Positions 31,157 through 50,784 of a stretch of 54,487 bases of DNA are shown here, in pieces. A program made the position numbers and the translations under genes. Position 1 is the first letter of the stretch, and the number at the start of each line of letters is the position of its first letter. A model generated the notes under the pieces. It was not told the DNA's origin, did no database searches, and worked only from the letters and a program-made list of their open reading frames with translations. This stretch comes from Clostridia bacterium. Its GTDB lineage: Bacteria > Bacillota > Clostridia > Oscillospirales > Acutalibacteraceae. The stretch covers positions 1 through 54,487 of the forward strand of contig JAFQBE010000038.1 in NCBI GenBank assembly GCA_017416765.1, written 5' to 3'.

Positions 31157-34100
31157 ATGATTAAAGATTTCAAACGAGTAATATCTTTGATACTCGTAGT
31201 GGCTATGCTTGCGTCATTCGCAGGTATACCCGGTATTGCGGACTATGTGCCGACAATCGAGGCACAGGCTGCGGCAACTACTCCTGCAAGGCCGACTACA
31301 CTCAGCCCTATCAAGTTAGAGTACGGTAACTCTGCCGAAAACGGCAGCAAGCCTTACGGTAGCTTTGCGGCAATAGCAGAGTACAGAGCAACGCTTGATG
31401 TGCCGCGTACGCTTTATACAAACGGTTCAAAAATTGTAAACAGCGTTACTTCAAAGTGGGAGTCAACTGGTGAAGAAAAGTCTATTACATTAGATACAAC
31501 GCTTACTGTTATTGTTCCCGGTGCGTGCTACGATGCAGCCAGAGATATGAACGGCGATGGTGTGTTCAACGATGCATATGTGCGCCTTAACATTATAGAC
31601 CAAAACGAAAATATACTTAAGGTATATAGCCTTGGTGGCGGTTTGGATCCGTATCCGAACGGTTTAAACGATTTAAACGGTAATGTTATTTACCCTGCTG
31701 TAGATTCACAGTCCGGTGCAGCAACAGCAAGCGGTTCTAACTGGGAAGTTACCTTTGATTTGGTTAATGAAACCAATATTGTAACAAGCAGTAGCCATAA
31801 AATGCTTTGCTATCGTATTGATTATATTGTCCCTCAAACCAAGTTTTTGACAAATACCGCAGTTGATGCGGATGGTATTGCCATGTCCGAACTTGGCAAA
31901 ACATCGGAAAATGTTATGTATAGCCAGTTTGCAGCAAGTGCTGTTATAAAGATACCTAACTTCCGCGCAGGTTATATGATTCCTGCTTTTGGCTATTCTG
32001 TTAAAGGCGGTAGCGAAGGCGGTTCGGTTGACCAGAAGAATATTCTGCATTATCAGCAGGGTGCTGACTTCTCGTCAATGCTTGTTGATGGCGTTAAAGG
32101 TATTAATATTCAAACAACTTATCGTTCATGCAATAACTCCACAGGTGTGTGGAACTGGATGCGTGAAGGTACCTATACTATAGAGGCACGACATGCCGGC
32201 GGTTACAATAATCCGGGTAATAAAAGCGGTTATACATCTTCTACAATCTATGGTGGTACCACTAATTTATCTGATAATCGTGGTAGTGGTGGTTTTGGTG
32301 AAATCAGTACCGGCAGTTTGGCACAAGACCATATGGGCAATGCCAGTAACTCAAATGATGGTGTTACCAACACTATGGGCGCTACCATATATTACGATAA
32401 ATATCATTATTCTTCAGGAAATACTCTTTCTTTCACTATTACAACAGACTTTCTGGGTGCAGTAGACGGTTATGCAACAAACTATGTTGACGAATACTAT
32501 GAAATGTTTGTTGACAGTCCTGATGGTCCGCAGTACGAATTTTTCGGTAACAATGGTGCTACAAAAACTGGCTGGCAGTCTACGGGTTCAAACAGCCGAG
32601 GCGGATTAAATTATCAGGATCTGGATGATAATAAAAGACTTGACAATTTCTATGCATCAGCGGGTAGTTCTCTTAAAGGTCAGCCGGCAAGCGACCAGAC
32701 CCGCACCTATACCGTTAAACTTACCGGTTCAAATGCTTCATATAACTTCTTAAATGCTCTTATGGCAGTTTACTTTGACGATAATGGTACAGCATATAAT
32801 GAATGTAGTAACGTTGGTGTTGGTCTTGCTTACCATGTTGATGTTGTCGCAGTTGACCGTACAACATCTTACAACCTTATTACTACAGCTGTTAATAACA
32901 ACTACATCAAGGCTGAAATGGATGCTGACTGGTGGAATAACTACCGTAATAATGTTATTTTCGCTTACTATAATACAGGTTATCTTTATAACACATCAGA
33001 TCCGTTCCCGATCGACGATGACTATATGTATGCCCCTGTATTCAACGGCGCAAACTATGACACAATGATGGCAGCGCTGTACAATACACCGGCTTACGAT
33101 GCAGGTACACTTGATACAGATGTTAAAGAAAACATCGCCCAGCACGGTGTCGCATGGAAGGCTCTCGGCTCAGACGAAAGCAAGCTCGGTGATTACTACT
33201 ATACTGCTGATTCGTGGGCAACCTTCAAGGCTGCAAGAGATCATGTCTATAAGCTTGCTTTTGCCAACTACCGCAGCAGCAATAACTACGGCCATGGCTA
33301 TATTCAGGATTTTGGTCTGCTTTATGATCCTCTTACAGACAGTTATATTGTAAAGAGTGAAACAAAATCACACTCTGCTCTTCACTGCTATCTGCAATAT
33401 GAAATTGAGCAGGCTACAAATAATCTTGCTAATGCTCAGGCTGCGCTAAAACTCAAAACCGCTAATTACAGCGGTATGCTTACAGCTATAAACAATGCTA
33501 CAGATAATGGTGCAAACGAATATATAACAAACCATAATAACGCAACATATAACAGCGAAAGCCTCAACTTCAAGGTATCAGGCAACGATTACACTGGTAC
33601 ATACTACGATTACGAAGGTAATGAAATTAATGTTTCCAGTGGCAGCGCTTTGTCGCAGAAGAACTTCTCAACAGACACAGCAGGTGCTTTGAGAACTGCT
33701 CTTCAGAAGCGTATGTTCGTTTACGACTGGACAGGTAAGGCAACAGCAAACGGAATAGGTGACGAACCGGTTGCTTTCAACTATGCCCATAATACAACGT
33801 TCAGTCCTGTTGCACCTAGCGATGGCTTTAATTCTGTTTTCACTACGGACTATGCAACCACTGAAAACGAAACAAAGCTTGCAGGCGGTGCAGCAACCTA
33901 CTATCTTTCACGTCCATACCAGAGTGCGATTGATGTTGCAATAAGCAATATTAATACTGCGGCAGCTGCTCTGCGCCTGCGTGTAAACCCGCAGGCTCTC
34001 GGTACAGAGATTGAAAATGCAAGATATATTGACCTTGACGGTGACGATGTAAGAGAATCCTACCTCTTCGATCTTCAGACTAATAATGATACATACGATG

Positions 34101-37100
34101 ATACTGACGTATATACCGATGAATCATTTGAAGCATATCTGCTTGCAATGAAGGTCAGCGCAACCGCTATTTACGGCGATGGCAATGCACATACCCTTGA
34201 AAAAGGCAAAACAACAATCGACTACTCATCTGACTTCTCGGCGAAGGATACTGACCTTGCCGGCGGCACTCCCGGTTATTACACATCAGACAGAACGATG
34301 AAAATAATTGATGCTTCCGGTAATGAGGTAACAGTAATTCCGGCAACCCGCCAGGAAGAATATAACTACGCACTTACCAATGCGCAGAATGCACAGCTTC
34401 TTCTTGTTAAGTACGCTGATTATTCAAAGGCTCTCGAAAGAATCAACGGCACAGCCTATATTCCCACTTATGACCAGAACGGCGCTCAGGCTGTTACAGG
34501 TTTCACAGGTGAAACATGGTATACAGACGAAACATGGACTCCATTTGTTAACGCACGTAATGCGCTTGCAAATATTCTTTATATCAATGGTGTGGCTAAC
34601 TCAAGCGGATATAGCTATAGCGATGGTGTTGCTAATAAATATACTCGCGGCAGACTTACTGAACCTCAGGAAGAGACCACAAATACAATTGCATCTGCGG
34701 TTGCCGCTTTTGATGACGCGTATTCAAAACTTGTCCTCAAGACAATGGCAGAATATGTTGACGGCAGTAATAACACATTTGATGCTATCAACGCTCAGGT
34801 ACAGACTAAGCTTGAAGAGCTCGGCGGCAGTTCACCTGTTTATACAATTGTTGACGGTGCGCTTGATAAAACAAGAACTACCGTTACAAACTACAGAAAT
34901 TATAGTGAACTTGTTGCAACGGCTGATATTGTCAATGCAATAAAAGCAACAGATTATCTTGTAAGTAAAAAAGATGCATATGAATCAGCTGTTACAGCGT
35001 TCAATAACAAGTATAATGAAGTAAAAGCCGGCTATAGCCCAATAGATGAATCCGGTTGGCTTGATATCTTCGAGCATCTTTCGGTTCTTGCAGACGGTAC
35101 AACTACAAGCGTTACCGCAGAAACCATACTTGATAAATTTAGCGAGCTTTATGTTGACAATGGCAAAGTTAAGCAAGCTATTTCAGACATTATTACAGAA
35201 TACGGTAATGCGAAGAAGGGTACACATCTGCCTGAAGGCAGCGAAGTAACAGCTCTTAATACACAGGGCAAAATCAACGAACAGGTTGAAGCTCTTTATG
35301 AATTGCTGAACAAAGAAGAAAATGCTCTTCCCTCAGCAAGAATTCAGAACACAATTTCTGAAATCAGAGGCATAATGAGCGACAGCTTTACAGTTTACAA
35401 CCCGTATGATTTTAGCAGATACGCAGGAAAGACAGACCTTGCAGAGGGTGATATTGATTACACCAATCCGCTCTACAGCTGGGGCGATGACAGCGCAACT
35501 GTTGAAGCAAACAAGCACAACGGTCTTTCTGCTATCAGCATTTATGATGATACAGAAAAAGGTGATGATTCAACCTACACAAAAATGGTAGGTTATCTCA
35601 ATACTGCCGAAACGAACAATAATAATGGTCACACTCTTTGGACAACTTCTGCAACTGAATTTGAAAAGGTTGCTAATACCCTTCGTGTTCAGGCGGGTCT
35701 TGAAGTAACAGGTACAAACTACGAAGCAGGTACAACCAAGGTTCTTGAAAAATCCAAGGTTAAGCTTGATGTTTTACTTGGTGCACTTAAAGCTGCTAAC
35801 CGCTCATACGGCTATGTCCAGAATGTTACTGCTGTTAACCCCGAAGAAAACGGCGAAAATTATGCATACAACAAATTTACTTCTGAATCTGTTGAAGAAA
35901 TCAGAGGTGTGGTTCAGTATGTAGAAGAGTACCTTGTTGATAACAACATTGCTACAATCACAACAGCTGCAGATGGCACAAAAACATATACAGCTGTTGC
36001 ATCAAGCGACAAACAGCTTGACGTTGATAAGCTTGTATTCTTTGTCCTCGATGAAATCGAAAATAAGGTTACAATGAATACCGTAACGGGTGAAACCGAA
36101 GAAAGATGGTTGCTTAGTGTTGAACCTACAGAAATGGTTGATGGTGTAAGTAAGGTTATTTATCACTTTACATGGACATACACCTATGACCAGAACGGCG
36201 TATGTACTGACGCAGTACCCACCCTTGATGAAACTAAATTTACAGGCAACTATTCATGGGAAAATCTTCTGCACAAGAAGATTGAAAAGGACGGCGGCGA
36301 TAACGGTCTTGCTCTCTCCAACGCTTACTACGGCTTCCTCGATCAGCAGATCAACACTCCGTACAGCGAAGAGCTTGTTGGAGTTGTTTGGGCAAGAGCA
36401 GAAGACGGCACACTTAGCCTTATCACAGAGAAAGATACAGCTGTTGGTGCAATAACCTTTACTGATGCAACATGGAGCAACTATATAACAGCCCGTAACA
36501 ACGCAAATGCATTTGCAAGAGATAAGAACTCAGCAGCTCAGGCTGATGTTGATGCTATTGCTCAGGCTCTTTATACAGCTCGTACCGGCTTGAAGCTGCG
36601 CAGCTTTGCTTCTAACACAACCGATTTTGCACAGGCACAGGAATGGTACTATAAGGACCTTCAGAAGTACGGCCTTACAACTCCGATTACACACTATGTT
36701 GTAAACGAAGACGGTTCAACATCGACTTATGATGAAAACGTATTTATCTATACCGGTGTTGACAATGTTCTTAATGAAGAAACCGGAGAATACGAGAAGG
36801 GTGCAGTCCTCAGCGCAATTGACGCTTACTGGGCACTTTATGCATCAAAAAATACAACAGCAGATTATGATTCAATTGATGCAGCTATAGCAAGCCGTAA
36901 CGCTATAAGCGGTACATATGAAAACGGTGTACTTACAAAGAACGGTTTGCTTCAGGATAATAATGTAACGCTCAAGAAGAAGAACGATGCTTCTTTCCGC
37001 GCAGGTGCTGATGAACTTATTGCTAACTTCATAGCAGGTACATGGACAGACGGCAAATACGATTCAGATCTTATTGCCAAGACCGATGCAGACTGGGATA

Positions 37101-40100
37101 CAGCTACATCTACATGGAAAGCAGGTTCACAGGGCTCGGAAATTCAGCGTATGCTGACCGCTATTGAAGCTATGTTTACTGCCGACGATGTTACTGTAGT
37201 ATTTACAGACGATGTAGCTAATGTTGAAAACTGTAAATTCTCAACAACATTCGGTAATGATGTAGCTGTCAAGACAAATGAGCTTTACTACTACACAACC
37301 GGTCAGAATGGCAGCGAAGGCGTTTATGCTACAAATCTTCAGTTTGCAATTAATATGCGCGATAACGAGCTGTATAAATTCCTTGGCACAAAGGTTGGTG
37401 TAGGTTTCCAATCAGACAACCAGGCTAAGCTTGTCAGTTACTATTATGGTAATGATACAATAACTATTAACAATAAGAATTATAGTGACCAATATTTTGT
37501 ATTTGACCAGGAATACATAGAAATCAATATTAAAAATCCGATTAATGATTATTTCAGCAAGCCGAGCAACTGGCCGCGTATCTATCAGGTAAACGGTTTG
37601 GTAGCAACTGCTGCTAAAACCAACGCAATTGCGACTGTTACAGGTTACACAGCTCCGTCAACAACGGACAAAACCGGTACATATGAATACACAGGAACAA
37701 CTGTACCGGAAGAAGTTTCCGACAAGATTGTTGCAATACTTAACTATGTTGGTCCTAAGTCGCCAAGTTATGCTAAGGCACTTGAAAATGATGCGTTCAA
37801 TACCTTCCGTACAGAGCATCTTCTTTGGCTGAGAGAGTCTGCATTCTACACAGACAGCAACGGCTATGAATATGTTCTTGCAGATGCTAATATTGCCGGC
37901 GGCGAAAAACCGGAAGCATATAGTATGGCTTGGTACAAAGAAGGCAAGGGTACCGGCTTTGACGGAAAACAGTATTATCTGTATAAGGGCGATCCTGAAA
38001 ATGCACCTATTACAGGTAGCAGTTACGGTGGTTGGTTTACTGACGATAAGGTGAAGAATGTTACTACCGTACAAAATGCAACATTAAGTGCAATTAAACA
38101 GTTTGGTATACAAGATGTAGCTGATATTAACGGTATAAAAATTAATCAGCATACACAAACGAAAAACCAAATAACAAATACTATTGCAAAAAATGGTTGG
38201 ATGCCGAATTATCAGACGAGCATTGAGAGTACAATAAATGGTGCCCAGAATGCAATTGATAAAAAAGCCGGAGCGGAATATGCAGCACTTCAAGGTTTAG
38301 AGCTTCTTCCCGCAACCGATGCATACAGAGAAGTTGTACAGCTGTATATGGAATCACAAAAGCAAAAGGTTGTTTATGGTGCTTCTTATCCGGGTATAAA
38401 TCCTGAAGCGAAAGATAATGATACTGCAGAACCATTTAATGAAATCAAGGATCTTGATAAAGCAATTTTCTATAATGCAGATGCTAACTTTGTAACACGC
38501 TTGCAGGATAGAGATGCCGGAATGACTTATGAAACAGATAGTATAACCGGCTATTATAAGGGTTATACTGCAAACTTGCCGGCAGACTATAACAATTCAG
38601 ATGCTGATGGCAATTATACAAAGTACCTGAATTTCTACACCAACTTGTTGAATGAATATGCCTCATTGACAACTCAGAAAACCATTGACTGCGCTGATGA
38701 AGTTAACGGACCATATACAAAAGAAAACCAGAGCCTCAAGGCACAGTTAATTGACCTTATAGCCAAGCTTGAACTTACGGCTCTAAACTATGAGAAACTG
38801 AACAGTTTGGTTAAAGCATTCTATAAGAACTACGAAACTGAAACAGAGAAATATGGTCTGAGCGCTAATGCAGCTGATTTCATTACTCTTCATGGCCTTT
38901 CCGGTTACACTTTCTACAAATATGAATGGTATACACCGGAATCACTTGAATTTGTCGTTGATACAATGCACGACAAAAATGTTATTACTGCAACTCTTCA
39001 CTCTCAGTCTGAAGCTGATGATTATGAGTTTAAACTTGATTTCGACACAGACACAAATGAAACAGGTCACAGAGGTACAATTTATACCAGCGCTACATCA
39101 AACGAACAGATTGAAGAAGCATATCAGGCTGTAAAAGAAGCTATTATGGCTCTTAAGCTTAAAGATGCTGAATTGGATGCACTTGATGCAGCGGTAAACA
39201 GGGGATTGGCACAAGATCCTGATGATTATGATGTTGTATCAGAAACGGGTAAAGCAGCATGGGATGCACTTCAGGCAGCAATTAAAGCAGCACAGGATGC
39301 TTACTATTTACCCGGTGAGGATGGCGAAACATTAGTACTGAAAACCGGTCTTGATATCAGATCTCAGAACGATATTGATGCTAAAACAAAGGCTATCAAT
39401 GATGCTATAGCTAACCTGAAATTCAAGGCTGATACTGCAGCACCCAAGATGACGGTTGACACAACACCTGAATCAATGAGGATGTACTACAATGTTGCTG
39501 CAATTGCTAATGCAGATGCTGCCGTTGCACAAGGTAGCTTACCTGAAACAGGTACATTTATAATGCCGGTTAAGTCGGGTTATTCGCTTGTAGTTTATAC
39601 TAACGAGCTTAACCCCAGAATAGCTATTGATCTTCAGGATCTTGGCATTACAGGCAGTCCGCTTACATCAAAGCCTGAAAAACTTAGTGCAACCGCACAG
39701 CGTACAGCCGACGCTACAGCAAACATTATTACAGGTACAAAGTTTGTTTCAGAGAATAATGAAACGACATTTAATGGTATTGATAGCAGCGTTGTAACCT
39801 CATCAACGCAGCACAGTGCGCAGACATATAAAGATGCTTCGGCTTCGTCATATGATGAAAACTCATCGTTGTTTGCAATTCTTGCACCCACATTCTCTGC
39901 AACCGGTGATCAGAAGCAGGCTGTTCTGTATCAGCTTACAGTTTCAGACTCAGGCGCAAGTCAGAGTGTAGTTCAAGGTGATACAACTCCGACAGATAAT
40001 AAGGTAAAAGAAATTACCTTTGCTAACGGTGAGGTTGTTAAGCTGACTAATGATGGCACAGCACCCAACACGGTTTCGGTTTATGTCTACTACAGAAACA

Positions 40101-42607
40101 CAATGCCGGCTGACGGTAACGATGAGGGTATCGACCATACAGGCACTGCTCTCACCGCAGCACATGGCGGTAACGCTTCCTTTGTTACAAACAACATCGA
40201 AGGTCAGAAGGGTACATGGCAGAATATATTCGGTCTTCAGAGATCGTTCCCGAACATCAAGGCTTGGGAACTTATCGATGAAAACAAGGATGGCTTTGTA
40301 AACTGGATTTATCCCAACCACATAATCGGTGAAAGCACGACTGACGATGACAGCCTTACTAAGGGTCCGATTTACTATGACCCGAACTTCGGTCAGATGA
40401 ACACCGGTAGCTTTGCTTATGTGCTTGATAGAGAAAAGGACAGTGAAGTTTACGAAGTTTATGAAGCAGGAAAATTAAATAATATTAAGGCTAAATATCC
40501 GGATTTAACCGAAGATCAGATCGTACTCAAGGATTGGTCAATGGATTATGCTGCAGCAACTCTTGCAAAGACAAAGCTGCTCACGACCATGACAGAAAAA
40601 CATTTTGCTGAAATTAAAGAATACAGCAGTTTTGCACGCTTCGGTTCATATCAGTACTGGTCTCAGGGTCTTAACGGTGATTTTGAGAATGGTGACCTCG
40701 TGTTTGTTCACGTTGTTGACCGTTGGGGTAATGTATGTAACAGAATCATGGAAGTTACCAGTTATGACGGCAAGGCTCCTGAAGTTAATTCAAACGGTGC
40801 AGGTACGGCAACGATTGTTGAACAGGGCGGTTCAGGTCTTGAAACAGTCGGTATCTGGCAGAACGGTGAGCAGACTGCTTCTGTACAGACTAACAGCGCA
40901 GCAATTACCCTTAACGCTACGGACGATGTAACTGTTGAAGAAGGCACAGACCTTGTATTCGCTCAGGGCATTACCGTTAAGGAAAACAGCGATGTAAACG
41001 TTTACGAAAACGCTGACGGTGTCATGGTTGCACAGGTAAGCGGCAACAAGTTCACAGTTGACGGACTTGTACCCGGTAAGGAATACCAGGTTGGTGCTTG
41101 CGATACCGCAGGTAATGTAACCGCTCCCTCGGTTCTTGCCGATGCAAACGGTAATGTTGAAATTACAGTTGTTGAAGACGAAGAAGCAACCTTCTCACTT
41201 AACAGCGATATAGTAGTTACAATCAACACAGGCATCAGCTCATCTGTTATAGATGCTGAAGTTGAGGGCAATGTAATTGCTAACAAGTATATCGACCATA
41301 TTATTGTCACAAAGGACAATGTTACTCAGATTAAGGTCGTTAACCTTGCAGACAATAAAGAAACCGTTTACAAACCCGCAAGTACAATTATGTACGATTA
41401 TGAAGACGGTACAATTGGTTGGGAAACATACTATAAGCTTACCGAAGGCCAGCACAGCTACAAGGTATATGCAATGGTAGATGGCGCATACGAAGAAATG
41501 GGCGTTACATACACATTCGATGCAACACTCAAAACAGTTCCGCTGTCACTTTCGGTTGTAGGTAACGGCAAGATTGTATTGGAATACAGTGGTGCTGCAC
41601 CTGCAAATGTTTCCAACTTCAAATTAGTTAATATCCCCTACGGTGCAAAGGTAACAATCAAGGCAACTTCACTTGATTCCAACTCCAAGTTCTACTACTG
41701 GCAGAATGATGTTACAAATAGAGTTCTTAATGTCAATGAAGAAATGAGCTTCACAGCAGTTGCTGCGGTTGATTACGACGCATACTTCACAAACAGCCTT
41801 TGCATGACATCTGAATACAAGTATGTAGTCTATGTCAACAACGCAGGTAACGTAATCAAGTCTGTTGAACTCAGAGATGGTAACAACGATTATATTGTAC
41901 CGCTCGGTCCCTCACTTCCTGACCACGAGTTCAAGGGTTGGGCAATGAGCAAGGCAGAAGTTATTGCAAGTGAAGAAGATATTGTTGTTGTAAGACCGAT
42001 TTACACACTCAACGCCGAATATACAGTTGAGCTTACCGAAGGTAACTACACTGTAAGCGGTGCAGGTACTTACACAGCAGTTGGCAACCAGAGACCGCTT
42101 GTAACAATTAACGCTTCTGCAATGAACGATGCAGGCGAAGATTTCCTTTACTGGATTGACGAAGAAACAAAGGATATCGTTTCTTACGACAGAGCATATG
42201 CATTCAACTGCATCAAGAATGTTGTTCTGACACCCGTTTACGGTGACGGTTCAAGCCTTGTTGTTGAGCCTGTAATCAGAATAGCTGATGTAAGATATGA
42301 TGCTTCATCAGGTAAGGTAAGCTTCTACTCGCAGCGTTCAATCGGCGATGATTATATTCTTTACGAAACAGGTATAATTGTTACAAGAACACAGTCTATC
42401 GCTGCAAACGAAGATTCGTTTGTACTTGGCGGCGTTTCCACTGCAAAGGGTACTTCAACAAGCACAGCACCTTACGGTACATACAGTGTTAACGTTTCTG
42501 TTTCCGCTCAGGAAACAGTATGGGCAAGGGCATACGCTGTTGTAGAAACAGCTGACGGTGAAATCATCGAGGTTTACGGCGATATCGTACCTTACACAAA
42601 CAAATAA
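31157..42607 (+). CDS. Giant secreted surface protein with FIVAR-like repeats (3816 residues)
   Basis: One uninterrupted frame with AGGAGGAATGAACC before the ATG. Residues 1-38 form a signal peptide (cleavage after EAQA). Residues 40-640 are Gly/Asn/Ser/Tyr-rich and beta-like, with a calcium-loop-like DMNGDG at 130. Residues about 640-2740 hold at least seven divergent FIVAR-like helical units: W/F-centred motifs such as YTADSWATFKAAR, YTDETWTPFVNARN and FTDATWSNYITARN, alternating with linker helices ending A-x-L-x-L-K (NAQAALKLKTANY, ALYTARTGLKLR, AVKEAIMALKLKDA). Residues about 2740-3816 are beta-rich, with Ig-like segments, a second loop DENKDGFVNW at 3041 and FKGW. LPETG occurs internally at 2795, but there is no C-terminal sorting tail, SLH or transmembrane segment. 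It is probably an adhesin or extracellular matrix protein (inference); attachment is unexplained. Confidence 0.9.
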   Translation: MIKDFKRVISLILVVAMLASFAGIPGIADYVPTIEAQAAATTPARPTTLSPIKLEYGNSAENGSKPYGSFAAIAEYRATLDVPRTLYTNGSKIVNSVTSKWESTGEEKSITLDTTLTVIVPGACYDAARDMNGDGVFNDAYVRLNIIDQNENILKVYSLGGGLDPYPNGLNDLNGNVIYPAVDSQSGAATASGSNWEVTFDLVNETNIVTSSSHKMLCYRIDYIVPQTKFLTNTAVDADGIAMSELGKTSENVMYSQFAASAVIKIPNFRAGYMIPAFGYSVKGGSEGGSVDQKNILHYQQGADFSSMLVDGVKGINIQTTYRSCNNSTGVWNWMREGTYTIEARHAGGYNNPGNKSGYTSSTIYGGTTNLSDNRGSGGFGEISTGSLAQDHMGNASNSNDGVTNTMGATIYYDKYHYSSGNTLSFTITTDFLGAVDGYATNYVDEYYEMFVDSPDGPQYEFFGNNGATKTGWQSTGSNSRGGLNYQDLDDNKRLDNFYASAGSSLKGQPASDQTRTYTVKLTGSNASYNFLNALMAVYFDDNGTAYNECSNVGVGLAYHVDVVAVDRTTSYNLITTAVNNNYIKAEMDADWWNNYRNNVIFAYYNTGYLYNTSDPFPIDDDYMYAPVFNGANYDTMMAALYNTPAYDAGTLDTDVKENIAQHGVAWKALGSDESKLGDYYYTADSWATFKAARDHVYKLAFANYRSSNNYGHGYIQDFGLLYDPLTDSYIVKSETKSHSALHCYLQYEIEQATNNLANAQAALKLKTANYSGMLTAINNATDNGANEYITNHNNATYNSESLNFKVSGNDYTGTYYDYEGNEINVSSGSALSQKNFSTDTAGALRTALQKRMFVYDWTGKATANGIGDEPVAFNYAHNTTFSPVAPSDGFNSVFTTDYATTENETKLAGGAATYYLSRPYQSAIDVAISNINTAAAALRLRVNPQALGTEIENARYIDLDGDDVRESYLFDLQTNNDTYDDTDVYTDESFEAYLLAMKVSATAIYGDGNAHTLEKGKTTIDYSSDFSAKDTDLAGGTPGYYTSDRTMKIIDASGNEVTVIPATRQEEYNYALTNAQNAQLLLVKYADYSKALERINGTAYIPTYDQNGAQAVTGFTGETWYTDETWTPFVNARNALANILYINGVANSSGYSYSDGVANKYTRGRLTEPQEETTNTIASAVAAFDDAYSKLVLKTMAEYVDGSNNTFDAINAQVQTKLEELGGSSPVYTIVDGALDKTRTTVTNYRNYSELVATADIVNAIKATDYLVSKKDAYESAVTAFNNKYNEVKAGYSPIDESGWLDIFEHLSVLADGTTTSVTAETILDKFSELYVDNGKVKQAISDIITEYGNAKKGTHLPEGSEVTALNTQGKINEQVEALYELLNKEENALPSARIQNTISEIRGIMSDSFTVYNPYDFSRYAGKTDLAEGDIDYTNPLYSWGDDSATVEANKHNGLSAISIYDDTEKGDDSTYTKMVGYLNTAETNNNNGHTLWTTSATEFEKVANTLRVQAGLEVTGTNYEAGTTKVLEKSKVKLDVLLGALKAANRSYGYVQNVTAVNPEENGENYAYNKFTSESVEEIRGVVQYVEEYLVDNNIATITTAADGTKTYTAVASSDKQLDVDKLVFFVLDEIENKVTMNTVTGETEERWLLSVEPTEMVDGVSKVIYHFTWTYTYDQNGVCTDAVPTLDETKFTGNYSWENLLHKKIEKDGGDNGLALSNAYYGFLDQQINTPYSEELVGVVWARAEDGTLSLITEKDTAVGAITFTDATWSNYITARNNANAFARDKNSAAQADVDAIAQALYTARTGLKLRSFASNTTDFAQAQEWYYKDLQKYGLTTPITHYVVNEDGSTSTYDENVFIYTGVDNVLNEETGEYEKGAVLSAIDAYWALYASKNTTADYDSIDAAIASRNAISGTYENGVLTKNGLLQDNNVTLKKKNDASFRAGADELIANFIAGTWTDGKYDSDLIAKTDADWDTATSTWKAGSQGSEIQRMLTAIEAMFTADDVTVVFTDDVANVENCKFSTTFGNDVAVKTNELYYYTTGQNGSEGVYATNLQFAINMRDNELYKFLGTKVGVGFQSDNQAKLVSYYYGNDTITINNKNYSDQYFVFDQEYIEINIKNPINDYFSKPSNWPRIYQVNGLVATAAKTNAIATVTGYTAPSTTDKTGTYEYTGTTVPEEVSDKIVAILNYVGPKSPSYAKALENDAFNTFRTEHLLWLRESAFYTDSNGYEYVLADANIAGGEKPEAYSMAWYKEGKGTGFDGKQYYLYKGDPENAPITGSSYGGWFTDDKVKNVTTVQNATLSAIKQFGIQDVADINGIKINQHTQTKNQITNTIAKNGWMPNYQTSIESTINGAQNAIDKKAGAEYAALQGLELLPATDAYREVVQLYMESQKQKVVYGASYPGINPEAKDNDTAEPFNEIKDLDKAIFYNADANFVTRLQDRDAGMTYETDSITGYYKGYTANLPADYNNSDADGNYTKYLNFYTNLLNEYASLTTQKTIDCADEVNGPYTKENQSLKAQLIDLIAKLELTALNYEKLNSLVKAFYKNYETETEKYGLSANAADFITLHGLSGYTFYKYEWYTPESLEFVVDTMHDKNVITATLHSQSEADDYEFKLDFDTDTNETGHRGTIYTSATSNEQIEEAYQAVKEAIMALKLKDAELDALDAAVNRGLAQDPDDYDVVSETGKAAWDALQAAIKAAQDAYYLPGEDGETLVLKTGLDIRSQNDIDAKTKAINDAIANLKFKADTAAPKMTVDTTPESMRMYYNVAAIANADAAVAQGSLPETGTFIMPVKSGYSLVVYTNELNPRIAIDLQDLGITGSPLTSKPEKLSATAQRTADATANIITGTKFVSENNETTFNGIDSSVVTSSTQHSAQTYKDASASSYDENSSLFAILAPTFSATGDQKQAVLYQLTVSDSGASQSVVQGDTTPTDNKVKEITFANGEVVKLTNDGTAPNTVSVYVYYRNTMPADGNDEGIDHTGTALTAAHGGNASFVTNNIEGQKGTWQNIFGLQRSFPNIKAWELIDENKDGFVNWIYPNHIIGESTTDDDSLTKGPIYYDPNFGQMNTGSFAYVLDREKDSEVYEVYEAGKLNNIKAKYPDLTEDQIVLKDWSMDYAAATLAKTKLLTTMTEKHFAEIKEYSSFARFGSYQYWSQGLNGDFENGDLVFVHVVDRWGNVCNRIMEVTSYDGKAPEVNSNGAGTATIVEQGGSGLETVGIWQNGEQTASVQTNSAAITLNATDDVTVEEGTDLVFAQGITVKENSDVNVYENADGVMVAQVSGNKFTVDGLVPGKEYQVGACDTAGNVTAPSVLADANGNVEITVVEDEEATFSLNSDIVVTINTGISSSVIDAEVEGNVIANKYIDHIIVTKDNVTQIKVVNLADNKETVYKPASTIMYDYEDGTIGWETYYKLTEGQHSYKVYAMVDGAYEEMGVTYTFDATLKTVPLSLSVVGNGKIVLEYSGAAPANVSNFKLVNIPYGAKVTIKATSLDSNSKFYYWQNDVTNRVLNVNEEMSFTAVAAVDYDAYFTNSLCMTSEYKYVVYVNNAGNVIKSVELRDGNNDYIVPLGPSLPDHEFKGWAMSKAEVIASEEDIVVVRPIYTLNAEYTVELTEGNYTVSGAGTYTAVGNQRPLVTINASAMNDAGEDFLYWIDEETKDIVSYDRAYAFNCIKNVVLTPVYGDGSSLVVEPVIRIADVRYDASSGKVSFYSQRSIGDDYILYETGIIVTRTQSIAANEDSFVLGGVSTAKGTSTSTAPYGTYSVNVSVSAQETVWARAYAVVETADGEIIEVYGDIVPYTNK

Positions 42608-49603: not shown

Positions 49604-50266
49604 ATGGCTTTTACCGATAAATACCAATTAACACCGGAACAAAGCCTGTTTCTTGCAAAAAAGAAATGGGATGAAAATGTATATTGCGGAATGAAGATGG
49701 AAAACAGAGCCGTAACATTCCCGCAGACCAAAACCATATTAAACGGTGTAAATGTTCCGACTGTTCAGCTTGACGATATACAGGCAATTTTAAATATGCG
49801 TGATGCATGGAAGCATCTATTAAACACTATTAACGAACCTGTAACGCTCGAATATATGTGCAAACTCAATGAGTATATAGCACGAAATGAAGCGTTAGAA
49901 TGGGGCAAACTCCGCACGGGAACTGTCTGCATCTCCGGCACTGACTATATGCCGCCTATACCACAGCAGGAACAAACAAAAAAAGAGCTTGAAGAAATCC
50001 TTACCGCTGATACAACAGCAACAGAAAAGGCTTTGAATGCTTTTGTGTGGGGCGCAAGAGGTCAGTTCTTTTGGGACGGAAACAAGCGTACAAGTTTAAC
50101 GCTGGCTAACAAGATTCTGGTTGAAGCAGGAGCAGGCATATTAACCGTTACCGATAAATACATGGAGCAGTTTAATGTTCTACTGTTAGACTACTACAAC
50201 ACCGGCACAAGCGACACTATGAAGTTATTCTTGTACGAGAATGCAATACAAGGAATTAATATTTAG
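49604..50266 (+). CDS. Fic-family protein lacking the usual catalytic histidine
   Basis: A 220-residue single-domain Fic protein. Fic proteins usually transfer AMP from ATP to a target Tyr/Thr/Ser through the motif HxFx(D/E)GN(G/K)R. Here the loop reads Q154-FFWDGNKRTS: the anion-binding GNKR end is intact, but the His position is Gln. The flap precedes it (GTVCISGTDYMPPIPQQEQT). No inhibitory S/TxxxEG helix is obvious. CGGAGG precedes the ATG. With the small HTH gene in front it looks like a regulator-Fic module, possibly toxin-antitoxin-like (inference). Normal AMP transfer is doubtful. Confidence 0.85.
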   Translation: MAFTDKYQLTPEQSLFLAKKKWDENVYCGMKMENRAVTFPQTKTILNGVNVPTVQLDDIQAILNMRDAWKHLLNTINEPVTLEYMCKLNEYIARNEALEWGKLRTGTVCISGTDYMPPIPQQEQTKKELEEILTADTTATEKALNAFVWGARGQFFWDGNKRTSLTLANKILVEAGAGILTVTDKYMEQFNVLLLDYYNTGTSDTMKLFLYENAIQGINI

Positions 50267-50304
50267 TTTCTTTTAGCTTCGTCACCGTTCATCAAAGCAA
50301 AAGA

Positions 50305-50347
50305 AAAATGGACAAGCTGTTGTATTCCAACAGTTTGTCCATTTTTT
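50305..50347 (+). terminator. Terminator of the HTH-Fic pair
   Basis: ATGGACAA (from 50308) and CTGTTG pair with CAACAG and TTGTCCAT, followed by a run of seven T: a strong intrinsic terminator. Confidence 0.85.
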
Positions 50348-50356
50348 TATGTTAAT

Positions 50357-50533
50357 TGGCTGGAGAATAGGGGTTTTTATCGCCTCACTGCGTTCGTTGC
50401 GACTCGGCAAACTCTCCACAGGAGAGTTTGTTCGCCTTACGGCGAATACCCTTCGCTGTTCGAATCCCTATTCTGTTTAACCACTAAAGATTGATAAAAA
50501 AATAAAAGCACCAACCTTTTGGTTGATGCCTTT
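50357..50533 (-). repeat. 177-bp tRNA-Gln-derived unit, distal copy
   Basis: On the minus strand the unit ends in the tRNA-Gln acceptor/T-arm sequence and CCA (50357-50373), then the tRNA terminator would follow. Bases 50365-50473 form a 109-base palindromic element whose ends, GAATAGGGGTTT and GTTCGAATCCCTATTC, are inverted copies of the tRNA T-arm. Inside are perfect hairpins AAACTCTCC/GGAGAGTTT and TTCGCC/GGCGAA. It differs from the next unit by only a few substitutions. Confidence 0.75.
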
Positions 50534-50710
50534 TGGCTGGGGAATAGGGATTTTTATCGCCTCACTGCGTTCGTTGCGACTCGGCAAACTCTCCACCGGA
50601 GAGTTTGTTCGCCTTACAGCGAATACCCTTCGCTGTTCGAATCCCTATTCTGTTTAACCACTAAAGATTGATAAAAAAATAAAAGCACCAACCTTTTGGT
50701 TGATGCCTTT
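50534..50710 (-). repeat. 177-bp tRNA-Gln-derived unit, proximal copy
   Basis: Starts exactly 177 bases before the intact tRNA and 177 bases after the previous unit. It carries the same 109-base element (50542-50650), the same 3' tRNA-Gln end, and the copy of the tRNA terminator. In the element only the position equivalent to CTCCaCAGG/CTCCaCCGG, one in TTACGGCG/TTACAGCG and one in the T-arm differ from the distal copy. Confidence 0.75.
50681..50709 (-). terminator. Terminator of tRNA-Gln
   Basis: On the minus strand GCATCAACC pairs with GGTTGGTGC across an AAAA loop, followed by TTTTATTTTTTTAT, directly after the tRNA CCA end. A near-identical copy exists 177 bases further on (about 50504-50532). 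Confidence 0.8.
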
Positions 50711-50784
50711 TGGCTGGGGAATAGGGATTCGAACCCCAACAAACAGAGTCAGAGTCTGTCGTGCTACCGTTACACTATTCCCCA
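50711..50784 (-). tRNA. tRNA-Gln (anticodon CTG)
   Basis: A 74-base tRNA: acceptor TGGGGAA/TTCCCCA, discriminator G, encoded CCA. The anticodon stem ACAGA/TCTGT encloses the loop CTCTGAC, giving anticodon CTG, which reads glutamine CAG. The U1-A72 end pair is typical of tRNA-Gln. A consensus promoter and a terminator flank it. Confidence 0.95.

Follow-up and report, generated by a model that had tools for sequence, protein, structure and literature searches.

Two tandem units of 177 bp situated behind a tRNA-Gln gene in the window (the whole stretch of DNA that was analysed, 54,487 nucleotides from a gut bacterium of the Clostridia) are, judging by sequence, one case of a scattered family of small elements located behind many kinds of tRNA genes. 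The family is recognized by a recurrent architecture, numerous tRNA targets, an empty site in a relative, the transfer of bodies between tRNA genes, ends that tend to match the target, paired stems and the occasional presence of genes. The explanation that we prefer, and to which we assign roughly an even chance, is that the 177-bp units are copies of a non-autonomous insertion element specific for tRNA 3' ends that would occasionally carry cargo and would be moved in trans. No description of such elements was found in the titles and abstract beginnings of the open-licence literature; the family looks like an apparently undescribed kind of small mobile DNA and is filed here as a variant among small non-autonomous mobile elements.

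Organization of the tRNA-Gln array

On the minus strand, a terminator-like hairpin comes right after the tRNA-Gln(CTG) gene. Next are the T-arm and part of the acceptor in inverted orientation, a hairpin body and a direct copy of the acceptor and of the 3' strand of the T-arm; a second unit repeats the same order, and a different terminator-like hairpin lies past the array (Table 1). The 3' end of the tRNA (50712-50729) is present in triplicate, with a spacing of 177 bp (TRF score 720). The initial annotation described exact 177-bp copies, of which the period and the three tRNA ends hold and the exactness does not: the units are alike at 173 of 177 positions and differ at 50364, 50373, 50420 and 50441, the first two changes falling in the distal tRNA-end copy, outside any tRNA. 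The inverted end, which reads GTTCGAATCCCTATTC on the plus strand of both units, is complementary to the tRNA T-arm at 16 of 16 positions; the inverted T-arm ends are thus real, as are the palindromes and the terminator copy ascribed to each unit. As the genome is a 47-contig draft, the tandem copies could be read as an assembly artefact; this is extremely improbable, given the four differing bases and the recurrence of the same arrangement across many separate assemblies.

Table 1. Features of the tRNA-Gln array in the window, and genes lying between elements in four arrays
Feature	Position or locus	Strand	Basis
tRNA-Gln(CTG), intact; target gene	50711..50784	-	ARAGORN; Rfam tRNA 64.5 bits
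Unit 1, tRNA-proximal: terminator copy, inverted T-arm, body, direct T-arm/acceptor copy	50533..50709	-	
Unit 2, distal; 4 bases different from unit 1	50356..50532	-	
Terminator-like hairpin right after the tRNA	50685..50706	-	sequence
Same terminator-like hairpin, copy 2	50508..50529	-	sequence
Inverted tRNA T-arm/acceptor copy of unit 1, 16/16	50635..50650	-	
Inverted tRNA T-arm/acceptor copy of unit 2, 16/16	50458..50473	-	
Core hairpin of unit 1, CTCC-GGT-GGAG (minus strand)	50585..50607	-	
Core hairpin of unit 2, CTCC-TGT-GGAG (minus strand)	50408..50430	-	
Second hairpin of unit 1 body	50616..50636	-	
Second hairpin of unit 2 body	50439..50459	-	
Direct tRNA 3' end copy between units 1 and 2	50535..50552	-	
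Distal tRNA 3' end copy, decayed, 2 changes	50358..50375	-	
Presumed native tRNA terminator; counterpart in the G010 empty site	50304..50346	-	
Array cargo: Fic	G001, L042		
Array cargo: secreted repeat protein and HTH-like ORF (named by eye)	G007, L044		
Array cargo: barstar family gene and small ORF	G322, L197		
Array cargo: ECF-type sigma factor and others	G336, L198		

Just past the distal terminator, a Fic family gene (49604-50266, plus strand) faces the tRNA; it was not called cargo because no element follows it. At 31157-42607 (plus strand), the window also contains a very long open frame, which encodes 3816 aa and has a signal-like start.

Comparison within the genome and the genus

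A nucleotide search of the window's own genome gave good scores only for the two copies in the window. The pattern GATTCGAAN{6,36}TCCNGTGGA, which combines the inverted T-arm with the hairpin, gave 6 matches at 3 places, namely the window, contig C6 and contig C28, the last of which holds a tRNA-Ser(GGA) with two whole units and one cut-off unit at a spacing of 199-200 bp. Among 11 genomes of the genus compared at the tRNA-Gln gene (G003 and G008 were left out, and the contig of G001 ends soon after the tRNA), a single unit with a body like that of the window is present in G004 and G007, a different body occupies the site in G009, and the site is empty in G010, G006, G002 and G005. The terminator at the empty site of G010 resembles the distal one of the window (70% identity over the compared flank), and relative to G010 the window locus can therefore be read as carrying an insertion of ~354 bp for which the tRNA 3' end serves as direct repeat. 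Positions 2925-3009 of contig L041 (MT839947.1, "Bacteriophage sp.", human faeces) share 95% identity with the tRNA-Gln stretch of the window; this contig has a serine-recombinase-like frame and no element.

Distribution of the elements and transfer of bodies between tRNAs

In the family architecture, a tRNA 3' end and its terminator come first, followed by the T-arm in inverted orientation, a body containing the CC-NGT-GG hairpin and, last, a copy of the T-arm/acceptor. The strict pattern GGGATTCGAAN{4,34}CTCCGGTGGAG, run once against 84,980 species genomes, identified 60 loci, mainly from Clostridia by title and many from the ruminant gut, gut or rumen origin being predominant; the remainder included one Coriobacteriales, three proteobacterial bins and one Streptomyces locus (L082), judged a chance match, with an unpaired stem. 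A tRNA called by ARAGORN lies on the same strand at most 302 nt upstream in 47 of the 60 loci, at a distance from the match of 41-62 nt in 42 of the 47 and of 137-248 nt in the other 5, where the match is a later unit or sits behind other sequence. Of the 13 loci with no called tRNA, three (L071, L076 and L101) follow immediately on a tRNA 3' end and two (L086 and L088) on an earlier unit. The tRNA genes occupied are of at least 17 kinds (16 in the end-match set, plus Asn). The units are mostly 143-215 bp long, with gene-less bodies of ~75-110 nt, in a data set where some elements are entered twice, as genome and as named contig.

With a looser pattern, matches were obtained in 9 of 120 sampled genomes of the window's family, the match in G117 being judged a chance one that lacks the stem; the elements are patchy in this family. 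In a set of 45 genomes, the pattern combining the inverted T-arm with the hairpin yielded 97 matches, among them 9 in G336 and 7 in G310, vs none for the reversed control; 40 of these genomes were reached via element-bearing loci, so that 45 of 45 is not a prevalence, for which 9 of 120 should be used. Loci L110-L113, which lack tRNA context, were also rejected as chance matches and, together with L082, excluded from the analyses of pair types, left ends and left flanks.

Bodies are shared by different tRNA genes. An inner body of 74 nt is 100% identical at two different tRNAs within G336 and 97% identical in G009, where it is found at tRNA-Ser, and the body from the window's tRNA-Gln shows 80-90% identity to bodies behind Ser and Pro tRNAs, with the tRNA ends of these body-sharing pairs being different (63-74%). 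Conversely, one tRNA can hold different bodies in different cases. As far as sequence comparison goes, these cases establish that bodies transfer between tRNA genes. The initial annotation proposed a non-autonomous mobile element that duplicates a tRNA end, and the same body at different tRNAs, along with the empty tRNA-Gln genes of relatives, agrees with this proposal. It also raised the prospect that no other genome would contain a copy; many copies were found at tRNA 3' ends, with empty sites in relatives.

Ends of the elements tend to match the target tRNA

The acceptor copy at the right end matches its own tRNA at a mean of 11.8 of 15 nt vs 5.5 for other tRNAs, as calculated for those 58 of the 74 matches that have a tRNA within reach, some elements being entered twice (genome and named contig); the match is at least 12 nt in 38 of these 58 rows and below 8 nt in 13. 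The proposed duplication of the tRNA end is supported, as the units mostly repeat the 3' end of their own tRNA. For the inverted left end, 6.81 of 9 positions match the own tRNA vs 5.22 for others (58 elements), a value reached in none of 5000 permutations. At Tyr genes the left end is GGTGGATTCGAA, and at Asn genes, with the T-loop TTCGAGTCC, both ends switch together to GGACTCGAA...TCGAGTCC; the Asn-type ends were found in L232 and L239, which represent two genomes and two body types. Past GGGATTCGAA, the left flank is frequently unmatched to the tRNA, L204 included. The sequences of the elements' ends thus appear to follow, as a tendency, the target tRNA. Inspection by eye indicated that the bodies do not continue as tRNA, and an antisense-tRNA reading of GGATTCGAA was dropped; of the initial description as "tRNA-derived", the part concerning the ends fits, and no tRNA likeness is apparent in the bodies by the same inspection by eye.

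In L240 (G355:C14, ~3058, minus strand), an element lies between a 3' fragment of tRNA-Arg and an acceptor copy of the tRNA-Ser type, which we take to indicate that copies of the element located at different tRNAs have recombined.

Hairpin stems and terminators

The seven pairs around CC-N-GT-GG were counted plainly at positions 1-7 in 62 representatives of 84; a first count of 428/440 was set aside because its stop rule was biased towards Watson-Crick pairs. Among 434 pairs, 412 are Watson-Crick, 7 G.T, 2 A.C and 13 other, and several pair types occur at stem positions 2-7. The loop is GGT in 58 of the 62 representatives, an estimate that is biased and in part owed to the search, as the loci were fetched with patterns fixing CC, GT, GG and partly the next pair. 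The exact CTCCGGTGGAG is absent from 16 of the 62, 12 of which keep CCGGTGG. In the tandem units of L058, pairs are swapped beside the hairpin.

The hairpins before and after the element were compared in 39 loci, with a local score of at least 26 taken as likeness (control means 6-11), and were alike in 19 and unlike in 20. Since likeness was seen in 19 of 39 loci alone, the 3' end and terminator seem in some cases to stem from the same tRNA, by duplication or carriage, and in others to have been replaced. In G336:C20 (L204), a perfect 56-bp direct repeat, reaching from the T-loop to the terminator, surrounds a single element, and the upstream tRNA is a 3' fragment alone; the perfect repeat suggests that L204 is a young insertion. 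In L101 (positions 1-120), a single long and perfect palindrome, with the terminator loop at its centre, comprises the tRNA 3' end, its terminator and the inverted tRNA end, as if produced by snap-back copying, and L064 contains a near-perfect palindrome of the tRNA 3' end.

Cargo genes and neighbouring recombinases

Genes are present between elements in four arrays (Table 1); most units are empty, and cargo is rare. A crude motif scan found no mobility gene within any unit. In 70 loci scanned for recombinase motifs, no tyrosine recombinase was detected, using a crude regular expression that missed the L095 fragment, and convincing serine recombinases were confined to L040 and L041, the latter with no element. 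A serine recombinase gene adjoins an element in L040, L140, G000:C6 and G004:C57. The L040 recombinase, which at first made this locus seem autonomous, was rejected as a carrier after its relatives were examined: of 31 found, the downstream stretch was inspected for 26, and 2 of these have the element.

Several other integration-related sequences were observed. Large serine recombinase genes in L116, L123-L127 and L136 end in palindromic sites centred on a ..CCACCA-like sequence, as if the attachment site of these recombinases were a tRNA or tmRNA 3' end. At ~2580-2810 of L095, a tyrosine-integrase-like frame (by eye) extends into sequence that duplicates the 3' end of tRNA-Lys and may contain an attachment site within the integrase gene. 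Upstream of the element in both L060 and L107, an alike short frame (MTNYDF.ETALS.TIDFT..) is broken off at a copy of the tRNA-Ser 3' end and is perhaps the edge of another integrated element.

Alternative explanations

The initial annotation also considered a structured RNA made by read-through of the tRNA. Folding of the minus strand from 50784 to 50533, as envisaged there, gave z = -7.6 against shuffles, the tRNA being included, and this strong fold, the conservation of the hairpin loop and internal motifs, and a slight excess of G.T over A.C on the tRNA-sense strand (7 vs 2, or 11 vs 2 in a looser count) would suit an RNA gene or processing element co-transcribed with the tRNA. Such an RNA is nevertheless unlikely: G.T accounts for just 7 of the 434 pairs although the stem positions vary freely, terminator-like hairpins flank the unit on both sides, and no Rfam family covers the body, which remained without a match when the window region was searched at E up to 1, while a search of 16 of the 60 loci at the gathering threshold returned tRNAs and other known RNAs and nothing else. 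The scarcity of wobble pairs and the terminator-like hairpins on both sides therefore favour a DNA-level structure or palindrome correction over RNA. The latter process enters a purely mutational explanation, under which no mobility is required: template switching at the palindromes of the terminator and T-arm would give direct-inverted-direct copies, and palindrome correction would perfect the stems. The palindromes of L101 and L064 and the Watson-Crick purity of the stems point in this direction, and the direct-plus-inverted layout could also be obtained in this way; however, local duplication cannot yield bodies common to different tRNAs and genomes (74 nt, 100%), and we regard this explanation as quite improbable. 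Whichever explanation holds, the ends are probably shaped by palindrome-templated correction.

If, instead, the elements were inserted in a SINE-like manner, with the U-tail of the pre-tRNA priming the copying of a body RNA into DNA and the product being joined at the T-loop, the duplication would start in the T-loop and extend to where the terminator ends. Direct repeats from the T-loop to about the terminator end are indeed found (56 bp in L204; also L050, L051, L057 and L066), and one end is truncated in several distal units (L075, L060, L196 and L210); yet a left end right after the terminator gives the same repeat borders under any model, and 20 of the 39 loci are without alike terminators, which leaves retro-insertion an unlikely route. 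The recombinase genes beside four of the elements could mean that the units are attachment-site remnants or satellites of integrative elements which encode large serine recombinases and use tRNA 3' ends. This, too, is quite improbable: among the 26 inspected loci, of which L115, L119 and L120 end too soon to judge, only L114 (the L040 contig) and L140 have an element right behind the gene, and the recombinase junctions have the appearance of a palindromic site of their own, with a ..CCACCA-like tRNA or tmRNA end at its centre; behind this site come the terminator of the tRNA and then the element. We read the serine recombinase genes near copies as belonging to separate elements that use the same tRNA ends. 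Overall, the initial interpretation is partly supported, with the mobile element being retained and the read-through RNA not favoured.

Proposed mechanism

Under the preferred explanation, that of a non-autonomous insertion element, a unit would consist of a tRNA 3' end with its terminator, occasional cargo and a hairpin structure of ~100 nt that has inverted and direct copies of the T-loop region at its borders. Insertion would occur at the T-loop and would leave the tRNA whole, because the 3' end and the terminator would arrive with the unit or be duplicated; the old 3' end would be displaced downstream and decay there, and arrays would arise via repeated insertion or unequal exchange between direct repeats. 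A putative trans-acting enzyme would insert the element site-specifically, acting on a folded strand whose outer stem would be a copy of the target site. Such a model would explain the inverted T-arm and the matched ends as well as the direct repeat and the formation of arrays; it leaves the acquisition of the acceptor of a new tRNA unaccounted for. Weighing against the preferred explanation are the 13 of 58 right ends that match over less than 8 nt, the frequently unmatched left flanks, the rarity of cargo, the lack of mobility genes within units in the crude motif scan, the negative result for integron integrases (0 of 16 above the cut-off) and the terminators, whose likeness in only 19 of 39 loci makes it necessary to assume that 3' ends are either carried or duplicated. 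The attC sites of integrons and the attP of the CTX phage act as folded single strands, and by analogy we infer that the structure may work as a folded single DNA strand for a recombinase acting in trans, to which the Watson-Crick stems point only indirectly. The inverted end would be kept matched by selection or by palindrome-templated correction, and the mover might be a host recombinase of the Xer type.

If the elements are moved as a folded strand, they would show how base pairing can broaden the choice of targets, and integron-like gene capture would have a second route; if palindromes alone drive the process, the family would clearly document how template switching acts at tRNA terminators in nature.

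Comparison with known systems

The tRNA 3' ends are classic docking sites of bacterial mobile DNA, and the elements that use them usually employ one tRNA and bring their own integrase. Similar to prophages, integrative and conjugative elements (ICEs) and satellites at such sites, the tRNA is restored here by a copy of its 3' end, with direct repeats of at least 15 nt; in contrast to tRNA-integrated prophages and ICEs, the units described here, ~100-200 bp in size, have no room for an integrase, and a single body type serves several different tRNAs. MITEs are likewise short and gene-less, with inverted ends, several copies per genome and empty sites in relatives, whereas the inverted ends of the present elements are the T-loop region of the target and vary with it (GGATTCGAA, GGACTCGAA) rather than being fixed, and the flanking repeat is a tRNA 3' end, sometimes with the terminator (56 bp in L204), and not a short fixed duplication; no parent transposon was found. 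A conserved DNA hairpin core and non-autonomous copies are shared with REP and IS200-IS605 elements, which, to our knowledge, leave no target duplication. The Y1 transposase (PF01797) is encoded in 10 of 16 draft genomes; it was not found in 4 of the 12 element-bearing drafts (G009, G310, G322 and G329), nor in G006 and G010, which have no element at tRNA-Gln.

The arrays of small, mostly short units described here, with a distal palindromic site and occasional genes such as Fic or barstar, resemble integron cassettes and integrase-less attC arrays (CALINs), and the inverted core-like bounds and the conservation of stem pairing over sequence resemble attC. Unlike integrons, the elements dock at the T-arms of many kinds of tRNA and not at attI, and unlike cassettes, they carry a tRNA 3' end and terminator; we know of no attC site with the conserved CC-NGT-GG apex found here. 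The integron integrase profile TIGR02249 had no match above the cut-off in 16 draft genomes, all 16 of which gave weaker tyrosine-recombinase matches; neither this search nor the one for Y1 transposases revealed a link to the elements. For integron cassettes, MITEs and tRNA-integrated phages alike, at least one of the defining features examined is missing from the family. A tentative, and rather doubtful, extension of the comparison is that gut Clostridia possess a tRNA-anchored cassette system analogous to integrons, with T-arms as docking sites, a folded-DNA site and one recombinase for many tRNAs; its mobile units would carry a spare tRNA 3' end and terminator, and optionally a Fic, barstar, sigma factor or secreted protein gene, and a stem copying the target tRNA would let one recombinase serve many tRNA genes.
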